From Vampirovibrionales bacterium (GTDB lineage Bacteria > Cyanobacteriota > Vampirovibrionia > Vampirovibrionales > Vampirovibrionaceae): DNA of 64,000 nt. Below the pieces are notes generated by a model, which was given only the letters and a program-made list of their open reading frames with translations, made no database searches and had not been told where the DNA came from. Position numbers and translations under genes: made by a program. Positions 30,947-36,744 of the stretch are shown in pieces (the first letter of the stretch is position 1; every line of letters begins with the position of its first letter). The stretch covers positions 350,705 through 414,704 of the forward strand of contig JARXAD010000013.1 of the NCBI GenBank assembly GCA_029866025.1, in the 5' to 3' direction.

Positions 30947-31020
30947 GGCTCTGTAGTTCAGTTGGATAGAACGTCACACTCCTAAGGTGAATGTCGCAGG
31001 TTCGACTCCTGCCAGGGCCG
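30947..31020 (+). tRNA. tRNA-Arg (anticodon CCT)
   Basis: Acceptor GGCTCTG/CAGGGCC pairs; anticodon loop CTCCTAA; T-arm GCAGGTTCGACTCCTGC. Confidence 0.93.
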
Positions 31021-31103
31021 CTTTAAGTTTCGCCACAATAACAGGGCTGTTGGCACCCAGAGAGAGCTTAAGTGGGCATTAAGTGCATTAAGGTTCTGAG
31101 CTG

Positions 31104-32753
31104 TTAGCTTTCAAAGGTAAACGCATAAGCCTGAAGACCGGGCTTTAAGCTCTTGATAGAAATTTGACCTTCTTGGCCAGCACTCAAAGACAACAAGGTA
31201 TAAAGCTTGTGCTGCTGAACTATCCAAGGCTTTCCATAGGGCTTGTTGTTTAAATACAACTGAACAGGCACAGCTTGGCCTGATTTTGAGCCTAGAACGA
31301 GAAACACTTTTTTGGCCGAAAAATGAAGGGCCAAGGTGGCGCCTGCACTGACGGATTCAACATACTCAGGCTGAGTTTTCCACGTGCCAGCTAAAGCCCA
31401 GTGATGAAGACTCAAATTGGCAGGAGCCGTAAATACCGATTTCTTGGAAGGAACTAAGCTAGGGCTGCTAGAAAAACTAGAGACCCTTATATACCCCAAG
31501 TACGTTTCTGGGGTTTGAGAGCGGCTTATGGAGGGGGCGATTGTGGGTTTAATAGCCGCCGTTTTCCCCAGTAAGGTTTGAATATTTTTCTCTGTTACGT
31601 CGTAATTGCCTTCGCCAAAGTGGGTGTAAACCACATCGCCGTTACGGTCAATTAAGTAATGCGCTGGCCAATACTGGTTACTAAAATTGACCCATGTTTT
31701 CAAATCATTATCCAACGCAACAGGATACTGAATCCCATATTTTTGAACGGCCTTGGTGACGTTGTTCACATTTCGCTCAAATTCAAACTCTGGGGCATGA
31801 ATACCCAACACAACCAAGCCATCTTTGCGGTATTTGGCATCCCAACCCGTGATATGTGGCAAGGTGCGAATGCAGTTAATGCAGGAATACGTCCAAAAAT
31901 CCACCAAAACCACCTTACCCTTTAACGACGCCAACGTAAGTGGCTTCGTGTTGATCCAGTGACTAATGCCCGCCAGTTTAGGAGCAGAGTAAGGCCTTGA
32001 TAGGCCATCAATAAGAACCGGAGTTGCCTTTTTTGCTACGACGGCTGGCGGGGCTATGGGTGCCGAAAAAGCCCATAAATCTTGAGACGTAACCATAGCT
32101 GTGAGAATAATAACGAGACCCATTACTTTACGAAGCGTGCTGCTATGGCGTTTAAAGAGAGTCAGTTTTTCCATAAGGGCTTGTCCTTGTAGTGAAATGA
32201 GTAACATGGGTAACCCCGCCCCAAGGGCAAAGGCAAACACGGTTAAAACGCTGGATAGGTTTGTTTTTTGCTGAATGGATTGAACCAATACCGCCGCCAA
32301 TATGGGCCCAGAGCATGGCACCCAAACCAACCCAATGCACGCCCCAATAAGTAGACCGCTCCAAAACCCACTTGGACTATATAGACCGCCGTTAGGGTTG
32401 GATTGAAGTTTTCGCTGTGTTTTATCGCCCCACTGGCCCAAGGCAACCGTCCACTGAGAGAACGCTTCTGATAACGTCGTGGAGAGCATGACCACCCCCA
32501 CGAAGATAAGCACCAAAAAAGAGACTTGCCTTAATACGGTTGGGTCTATATGCAACGCCAGCACTAACGCGCGAGATAACAGGGTAAACCCGGCAAAGGC
32601 CAAAACAAAACCTACAATAATTCCGTAGGGGCGTAGTTTCCCATCGGTTAGAGAAGACGACAGCACAATGGGTAGTACAGGCAAAATGCAAGGGGACACA
32701 ATCAAGGCAAGCCCTTCAATAAAGCCCAGGCCAATGGAAAGAGCGTTAATCAT
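31104..32753 (-). CDS. CcdA/DsbD-like membrane domain fused to thioredoxin-like (TlpA/DipZ-type) domain
   Basis: N-terminal multi-TM (SPCILPVLPIVLSSSL, GLVWVPCSGPIL), then GKVVLVDFWTYSCINCIRTLPHI. Confidence 0.88.
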   Translation of the reverse strand: MINALSIGLGFIEGLALIVSPCILPVLPIVLSSSLTDGKLRPYGIIVGFVLAFAGFTLLSRALVLALHIDPTVLRQVSFLVLIFVGVVMLSTTLSEAFSQWTVALGQWGDKTQRKLQSNPNGGLYSPSGFWSGLLIGACIGLVWVPCSGPILAAVLVQSIQQKTNLSSVLTVFAFALGAGLPMLLISLQGQALMEKLTLFKRHSSTLRKVMGLVIILTAMVTSQDLWAFSAPIAPPAVVAKKATPVLIDGLSRPYSAPKLAGISHWINTKPLTLASLKGKVVLVDFWTYSCINCIRTLPHITGWDAKYRKDGLVVLGIHAPEFEFERNVNNVTKAVQKYGIQYPVALDNDLKTWVNFSNQYWPAHYLIDRNGDVVYTHFGEGNYDVTEKNIQTLLGKTAAIKPTIAPSISRSQTPETYLGYIRVSSFSSSPSLVPSKKSVFTAPANLSLHHWALAGTWKTQPEYVESVSAGATLALHFSAKKVFLVLGSKSGQAVPVQLYLNNKPYGKPWIVQQHKLYTLLSLSAGQEGQISIKSLKPGLQAYAFTFES

Positions 32754-33237
32754 GGGAACGATTCCTTGTAATGTTTTGAAAAGACTGTATGAAAGAGTCC
32801 AAAAATAGACGGTCTAAAGCCAACGGGCCGCCGCCGGTAAAAACAACGGATAAGGCGGAACCCAAGATGACCAAGGGGTACTCAAAGCCACCGTCCCGGG
32901 CAAACAGGCCCCCCGATAAATGGACCGTAATAATGGCCACCACCATGGTGGCTGCTATCAATAGCCCCCCAAAGCGAGTGAGTAAACCCAGTACAACCAA
33001 AATCCCCCCCAGTAACTCACCCCCACCCCCTAGGGCTGCATGAAACCAAGCCGGTTGAAGCCCCAGTTCTGTAAATTGAGCCACGGTGGCATCAAAACCA
33101 CCGCCGCCAAAAGTGCCAAACAGTTTATCAAGGCCGTGGGCAATAAACACAACCCCTAATGGCAGCCGTATCCACAATGGTGACAGAGTTTTGACTTTTT
33201 CTAATAGAACTAATAAAGCTTGAGGGGATAGAGTCAT
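32746..33237 (-). CDS. DoxX-family membrane protein
   Basis: RLPLGVVFIAHGLDKLFGTFGG, ELLGGILVVLGLLTRFGGLLIA. Confidence 0.88.
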   Translation of the reverse strand: MTLSPQALLVLLEKVKTLSPLWIRLPLGVVFIAHGLDKLFGTFGGGGFDATVAQFTELGLQPAWFHAALGGGGELLGGILVVLGLLTRFGGLLIAATMVVAIITVHLSGGLFARDGGFEYPLVILGSALSVVFTGGGPLALDRLFLDSFIQSFQNITRNRSHD

Positions 33238-33390
33238 ATCAGGTTACCTTTTTAGGTTTATAACATCCACAAGAAGGCCGGTTGGCCTCTTTTATTCATA
33301 CACCTTAACCTCAACAGGGCATTGGTTTCTGTCTGCTAGCTTACAAACACCGTTTTTGATTTAATCGCCTAGACGTCGCTTAAGAGTAAA

Positions 33391-35597: not shown

Positions 35598-36406
35598 GCT
35601 TACAGGCTTTTCAAACCTTGTTCTACAAACTAGCCACGACATCTGAAGAGACTGCGACAATTCTAGCTGAGGATCTGGCCTTATCAGGTCTGTTCTTAGC
35701 GCTTCCCAACCATCAACTTCAGCAATATCGCTGGATGGTGTATGCCAACCATGCCGAAACCTTAGAAACTATTTATCCTCTTACCTACACACTGCTAGAA
35801 GATACTTGGCAGCCTTTGGTTGAACACTATTTAGCGGCCTATCCACCCAAACATTACCAGCTATATGAAACTGCAACAGACTTTCCACAATTTATAGCTG
35901 AGCAAGCTAGTTGCACCAAGCAGTATCCTTTTGTTGTTTCCTTGGTTGCCTATGAACTATTGGAAGCCAGCATTTTAAGAATGCCCTCAAATGACCTTCC
36001 AAAGAACTCTACCAGAGAAGTCATCACTTCTTTTAATCTAGGTCAATTGTCGCCCATTCTACAAGAGGCATCGGCTTCCTTTGTTTGTGAATACCCGCTC
36101 AATACGATTGTAGAAATACTCAAACAAGACTCTCTTAATATCGATAAATTACAGTCTATAGAGCCACAGCCCCTCCACCTGTGGGTTTACCGAGATTCAG
36201 AATTCCAGTGTCGTTTTCTAAAGGTTACACCTTTTATTTTGGCGTGCTTAGAAAACTTTAGGAAAGCTCCTGACTTATCGCATGAAGGACATTTGTACAC
36301 TGTGACACAGGGCTTCAACCTTGAAATAAAGAATGATCTTAAGAAGAACTACTGTGAACTGATTCAAAATTTTTTGTCTTTTGGGGTATTGCTAGGATCT
36401 CGATGA
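35594..36406 (+). CDS. MNIO partner protein (DUF2063/HvfC-BufC-like)
   Basis: Overlaps MNIO gene by 4 bp; VYANHAETLETIYPLTYTLLEDTWQPLVEHYLAAYPP...FPQFIAEQ. Confidence 0.85.
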   Translation: MSLQAFQTLFYKLATTSEETATILAEDLALSGLFLALPNHQLQQYRWMVYANHAETLETIYPLTYTLLEDTWQPLVEHYLAAYPPKHYQLYETATDFPQFIAEQASCTKQYPFVVSLVAYELLEASILRMPSNDLPKNSTREVITSFNLGQLSPILQEASASFVCEYPLNTIVEILKQDSLNIDKLQSIEPQPLHLWVYRDSEFQCRFLKVTPFILACLENFRKAPDLSHEGHLYTVTQGFNLEIKNDLKKNYCELIQNFLSFGVLLGSR

Positions 36407-36530
36407 TTGATTAGGTAAGAATGTATTTTTTATGTCTTTACCTTTAGCGCCTAACGCTAGAAACTCCATCGGACTTAAAATATATCACGGGTAATGTTGC
36501 GAATGGCATCATCTGACCTTATTCAACTTA

Positions 36531-36562
36531 GTAGGTATTCAACTTAGTAGGTCATCATTCCA
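36531..36562. repeat. 16-bp tandem duplication ATTCAACTTAGTAGGT x2
   Basis: Read directly. Confidence 0.95.
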
Positions 36563-36679
36563 GTAGATTAAACCCCAAGCATGAGAACATTTAATCGAGA
36601 GTTTTTGATTCGGGGGCAGGTCAGCCAATATTTTAATCTATTACTTATTCTATCTTATTTATAAATAGATAGAAATATT

Positions 36680-36744
36680 CTGGCTCAGAGGGCTAAATCT
36701 CTCTCCTAAGTTGAGTATCGAAAGATCGACTCCTGCCAGGGTTG
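36680..36744 (+). pseudogene. degenerate tRNA-Arg(CCT)-like remnant
   Basis: CTCCTAAGttgagtatcgaaagaTCGACTCCTGCCAGGGttGCT aligns to the 3' half of the intact tRNA at 30947-31020; 16-bp perfect match at 36726-36741. Confidence 0.7.

Follow-up and report, generated by a model that had tools for sequence, protein, structure and literature searches.

How did a set of redox and peptide-maturation genes come to lie between an intact tRNA gene and a damaged piece of the same tRNA? The question is raised by the middle of a 64,000-nucleotide stretch of Vampirovibrionales DNA (the window), where a preliminary description had noted a decayed copy of tRNA-Arg(CCT) at 36.7 kb and had left the choice between an old island and a tRNA duplication open. 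Our analysis favors an old, immobilized tRNA-Arg island whose present genes were brought by the insertion, and we give this reading a probability of roughly 60%. The insertion step and the origin of the genes differ in how firmly they can be held, and they are treated separately below.

The tRNA-Arg(CCT) gene and its partial copy

The intact gene lies on the forward strand at 30947–31021 (ARAGORN; Rfam tRNA, 63.3 bits) and, of the 40 distinct tRNAs that could be recovered for the 2.19-Mb genome, it is the single one with CCT. We propose that it is the insertion target, restored at attL. From the anticodon loop to the tRNA 3' end, this gene (30979–31022, the attL-like core) aligns with 36703–36746 on the same strand, without gaps, at 36 of 44 positions (82%), the two copies being 5.7 kb apart. 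The copy is thus real, although the preliminary description had placed it at 36701–36744, two positions too far left; the 16-bp perfect block that it reported (31002–31017 and 36726–36741) was located exactly. The geometry and the decay of this 3' half are direct observations, and the copy is our proposed attR, that is, the displaced original 3' end of the gene.

The resemblance might be due to chance, or an unrelated functional tRNA might lie at 36.7 kb, but the 18% mismatch is all that speaks for either. In a BLAST search of the whole genome, the tRNA 3' half matched the copy with E = 6e-6, and the sole further match was a different tRNA-Arg. Among 60 simulated 12-kb stretches no match exceeded 25/44, and the remaining window gave 23–25/44, against the 36/44 observed. 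Because neither ARAGORN nor Rfam (E up to 10) calls a tRNA at the copy, it is a non-functional tRNA fragment, and the functional tRNA that the preliminary description had allowed for is not there. The probability of chance or of an unrelated tRNA is therefore negligible.

The limits of the copy are more informative than its identity. The match opens with the first base of the anticodon loop (CTCCTAA) and breaks off shortly beyond the tRNA. Upstream of it, no trace of the tRNA 5' half was found, the best local score being 14, a value reached by about 10% of random sites; the 3'-half score of the copy is 48 versus a null maximum of 20. Directly 3' of the fragment, from 36747, the DNA reads ATCTTAGTTCGTTGAGCAAGG, and ppc follows about 120 bp on. 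A genome-wide search with tRNA 3' halves scored 40 of 51 candidates, and the Arg remnant was not on its list; the genome may therefore contain further weak remnants.

Displaced fragment or tRNA duplicate

Illegitimate recombination that duplicated just the tRNA 3' half would account for the fragment with no site-specific integration, and the gene cluster in between would then be coincidental. The lack of an integrase agrees with such an event, and the genome does make tRNA duplicates: tRNA-Leu(caa) (G000:C1:53471-53651) has a decayed full-length tandem copy 95 bp downstream, with 86% identity. The D-arm of that copy is still readable (GGCGGAATGGGTAGAC), and it is a tandem duplicate in a form unlike that of the Arg copy. 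A whole tRNA that had decayed to 82% should likewise leave a visible 5' half, so the Arg copy does not resemble a duplicate. It begins exactly at the anticodon loop; it also lies several kilobases away on the 3' side of the gene and points the same way, which likewise speaks against illegitimate duplication. We regard that origin as improbable.

The genome offers a second yardstick in its own islands. A search with the 3' halves of all tRNAs found exact copies of tRNA-Val(cac) (C9:133046) at C9:111254 and C9:101893, and of tRNA-Met(cat) (C13:52222) at C13:9473. These repeats are identical over 43–44 nt or more (the 44-nt search tiles limit the reported lengths, which were read from the flanks instead), are found on the 3' side, and extend from the anticodon loop (for Val, from within two bases of it) through the end of the tRNA. 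At a distance of 92 bp from the far Val copy begins a tyrosine integrase of 438 aa that includes an arm-binding domain, and the Met interval encloses a 286-aa integrase. The Arg repeat starts at the same place in the tRNA and runs in the same direction. Because the anticodon-loop start and the 3' side are shared, the Arg geometry is that of the genome's own integrase-bearing islands, minus the integrase. The Val and Met islands differ from the Arg interval in having integrases and exact repeats and in size, at 31 kb (in two parts) and 43 kb. Their cargo also differs, with several restriction- or defense-type genes, and the GC3 of the Val islands (0.381) is clearly lower.

Compared with a tRNA duplication, a displaced attR fragment is the better fit, because the 5' half is missing, the start is that of the Val and Met islands, and the Leu duplicate keeps its 5' half. 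The same evidence bears out the attL/attR-like architecture proposed earlier. The choice that had been left open is thereby pushed towards an island; taken as a step by itself, site-specific insertion into tRNA-Arg(CCT) that left behind a displaced attR, now decayed, is quite likely. That the whole cassette arrived with the insertion is something we infer.

Known tRNA islands provide a wider comparison. In the Islander survey of Hudson, Lau and Williams, 3' fragments were displaced in 3760 of 3919 islands and crossovers fell in the anticodon loop in 2083 of 3919, the known crossover subsites being the anticodon loop or the T-stem region (PMC4383910). The Arg interval resembles islands of this class in its intact tRNA, its displaced 3' fragment on the same strand, its anticodon-loop crossover and the cargo in between. 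It is unlike them in that it has no integrase, is short (5.7 kb) and retains 82% identity in its fragment; entry into the Islander database depends on an integrase, and the islands listed have intact att sites (PMC4383910). Because the integrase is missing, the Arg interval is classed here as a degenerate and not a complete tRNA island. Its footprint is of a well-known kind, and its cargo is unusual only in detail. A stranded island can thus be recognized after its integrase has been lost, if intact islands elsewhere in its genome serve as the yardstick.

The intact islands have contents of their own. The tandem Val islands (G000:C9:101893-133099) carry an integrase, a DUF3987 primase/polymerase, a GmrSD-type endonuclease, a DNA methylase and AIPR, as well as a KAP-NTPase and QueC-like pair resembling the Qat defense system. 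The Met island (G000:C13:9473-52294) holds an integrase, an MmeI-type restriction enzyme, an AAA/AbiEii-like ATPase, a Y-family polymerase and a 3468-aa open frame, and a reverse transcriptase lies just outside its far repeat.

The proposed insertion site, its composition and its age

The preliminary description had found no integrase, and this holds: there is no match to PF00589 in the interval and no relic by tblastn. Across 28–40 kb, no integrase, excisionase or phage gene was found, nor any relic of the genome's own integrases. A gene at 62056–63138, whose homologues adjoin tRNA-Arg(CCT) in G001 and G023, was considered as an integrase and proved to encode a peptide chain release factor. 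In 14 relatives, a model built from five seeds detected no integrase within 12 kb of tRNA-Arg(CCT) except in G042, where an integrase-family gene lies upstream of the tRNA.

Upstream of the tRNA in the window is a forward-strand gene for a CHAP-domain protein (29806–30870; a weak Pfam CHAP match of 25.9 bits, cut-off 26). The complete genome G001, from the same family, likewise has a homologue (33%) on the upstream side of its tRNA-Arg(CCT), so the left flank represents the older context. After the tRNA, G001 has a release-factor gene; at this site it carries no fragment and no cassette, and the genome has no ppc match. The right flank of the interval is ppc, the forward-strand gene for phosphoenolpyruvate carboxylase (36866–39772; Pfam PEPcase, 648.6 bits), and synteny on this side is not conserved in any relative, including the relatives of ppc. 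In a ppc tree, the protein of the window groups with that of G003, from its own family, but this is a weak control, as the same tree does not keep family f1, to which the window belongs, together as one clade. In f8, five genomes keep the 5' side of tRNA-Arg(CCT) for about 8 kb and only three have the 3' side in common, a pattern that fits a site taking insertions on its 3' side. Comparison of the site at genus distance shows one flank alone conserved, and no true empty site was seen among these genomes. The preliminary description had also considered that relatives might all carry the cassette at this place, which does not apply, as related genera have tRNA-Arg(CCT) without it.

Base composition gives no help in drawing the ends. 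GC3 is 0.565 left of 28 kb, 0.422 at 28.3–30.9 kb, 0.453 in the cassette, 0.460 at 36.8–49.4 kb and 0.529 beyond. The cassette is lower in GC3 than all other genes of the window taken together (p = 0.004), and its codon-usage deviation is not unusual against them (p = 0.31). A comparison of GC and codon usage inside and outside had been proposed for recognizing the island, and neither GC3 nor codon usage changes at its proposed ends. Because the GC3 trough is wider than the interval and codon deviation is ordinary, composition neither supports nor delimits an island; an old insertion could have ameliorated. Foreign composition is common in an old island and is not required for one. The trough itself (0.42–0.46) spans 28300–49400 of the window and overshoots the island on both sides. 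At the end of the window (63174–64000) there are tandem, similar small-protein starts (MVSDN.., at about 63234 and 63618), after which the contig ends in the apparent start of an IS-type transposase gene.

The fragment also carries information on its own age. At the eight positions where it differs from the intact gene, the tRNA-Arg(CCT) genes of relatives (seven were compared) match the intact gene almost throughout, so the eight differences are derived changes in the fragment. The T-stem letters CCTGC are common to the fragment and the intact gene and absent in G001, G012, G014 and most others compared. Because the fragment shares these lineage-specific letters and carries the eight derived changes, the copy arose later than the split from the other genera compared and then decayed; the insertion postdates that split and yet is old. 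The Val and Met repeats, unlike the decayed Arg fragment, are still exact.

A history consistent with these results would start with an integrative element that recombined with the anticodon loop of tRNA-Arg(CCT) and so entered the gene. The tRNA 3' half carried by the element would have rebuilt the gene at attL, and the original 3' half would have been pushed to the far end, at attR. Its integrase and mobility genes were presumably lost later, and the displaced fragment, free of selection, would have decayed to its present identity, so that an immobile interval of 5.7 kb remains. The cargo would most likely be the module of DoxX, Crp/Fnr, precursor, MNIO and DUF2063 genes, a bufferin/oxazolin-type operon, riding in with the element; DipZ may have arrived in this way too, or separately.

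The proposed cargo and its relatives

The gene content had been described correctly, and there is nothing else of size in the interval. On the reverse strand are a DipZ-like gene (31104–32753), with DsbD transmembrane, redoxin and thioredoxin-like C-terminal domains (Pfam PF02683, PF08534 and PF17991), and a DoxX-family, HvfX-like gene (32746–33237; PF07681). The forward strand carries a Crp/Fnr-type regulator (33391–34182; Pfam HTH_Crp_2), a Cys-rich secreted precursor of bufferin/oxazolin-like type (34240–34629, probable start 34285), an MNIO enzyme of the BufB/HvfB type (34701–35597; PF05114, 319.5 bits) and a DUF2063 partner of the BufC/HvfC type (35594–36406; PF09836 and PF22106). The precursor has no Pfam match, its signal peptide was judged by inspection and its repeats read HKCGTEA; its homologues sit upstream of MNIO in relatives. 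NCBIfam sets four of the genes beside HvfX, HvfA (E = 5.5e-5), BufB/HvfB (BufB 302.9 bits, cut-off 310) and HvfC, all under the equivalog cut-offs. The non-coding right end (36407–36702) is AT-rich, as had been reported, with 34.7% GC over the last 300 bp, and contains a 16-bp tandem repeat at 36520–36551; it is possibly an old attP arm.

The core of published bufferin clusters consists of DoxX, DUF2063, MNIO and a secreted precursor (PMC12452194). The interval resembles these bufferin/oxazolin systems (BufABCD, HvfABCX) in its apparently Sec-type Cys-rich precursor, MNIO, DUF2063 partner and DoxX; the MNIO is present, and DUF2063 and DoxX, both over their Pfam cut-offs, lie nearby. It is unlike them in its NCBIfam equivalog scores and in its precursor, which reads HKCGTEA and not EGKCG, the known precursor signatures being DUF2282, 6/12-Cys or EGKCG. 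The published bufferin core does not include the Crp/Fnr regulator and the DipZ-like protein that are linked here (PMC12452194). By analogy, the operon is expected to make and control a secreted metal-binding peptide, probably for copper, a role we take from the bufferin family.

The genes of the interval do not share one history. In a tree of 47 MNIO sequences, families f8 and f2 are whole and f4 and f1 nearly so, and the MNIO of the window falls outside the other nine f1 proteins and groups with that of G012, from family f3 (support 100/99). A monophyletic f1 is rejected for MNIO (AU p = 0.003), which indicates a history other than that of the host family; long branches (G012 1.33, G001 2.39) call for some caution in reading this tree. 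The partner protein is likewise closest to G012 (38%, versus 22–28% in f1). In G012, a broken Crp gene and then a precursor-like gene, also apparently broken, lie between two inverted copies of one insertion sequence, and MNIO and the partner are 43 kb from them beside another copy of it (L249:8170-11833 and L107:8301-10266). The combined pieces give the gene order of the window, Crp-precursor-MNIO-partner, in split form. This insertion sequence is present in dozens of copies in G012, and no MNIO match was obtained in G014, which belongs to the same genus. In G009, a member of f1, DoxX (71%) and Crp (44%) form a divergent pair, as in the window. Among 29 relatives searched, only G009 and G012 have Crp relatives at 43–45%. 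The MNIO tree and the patchy relatives that hold pieces of the module thus support a horizontal origin. DipZ at least may not be foreign, because its full-length relatives (48–56%) were found only in f1. The interval is thus a mosaic, most of it resembling a moving module.

A mosaic also invites the explanation that the attR scar is true and that the genes are later or older occupants of a hot spot with turnover of its content, the cassette or DipZ having come by other routes. The absence of mobility genes and of a composition step would agree with this, as would the variable 3' side of tRNA-Arg(CCT) in relatives and the separate affinities of DipZ (family-native), MNIO and partner (tracking f3) and DoxX (71% identical to G009). 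Against it, no genes other than this set occupy the interval, and the recurrence of the Crp-precursor-MNIO-partner order in G012 and of the divergent DoxX/Crp pair in G009 points to a unit. Content turnover at the site is, in our view, rather unlikely, and we continue to prefer an island that brought its present genes. A more tentative suggestion, and one we would not bet on, is that the bufferin/oxazolin-type operon moves within this order as a module that includes a dedicated Crp/Fnr regulator and DoxX; an integrative element would have brought it to tRNA-Arg(CCT) here, and in G012 it would be breaking down, in separate pieces, among insertion sequences. If this is true, metal-peptide clusters spread as cargo between families. 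Through its gene tree, which conflicts with the host family, the locus offers a concrete case for MNIO/bufferin-type clusters moving horizontally, and this in an order that has been poorly sampled.

Searches beyond these genomes returned nothing from viral contigs for the tRNA pattern, PPC, DipZ or MNIO. In a search of wider genome contigs, only far MNIO relatives were recovered, from Myxococcaceae, other Myxococcales/Polyangia and Cardiobacteriaceae. Within f1, DipZ relatives are found beside ppc twice: in two species of one genus, G004 (L118) and G009 (L124), the DipZ homologue adjoins ppc in convergent orientation, which may hint at an old DipZ-ppc linkage.
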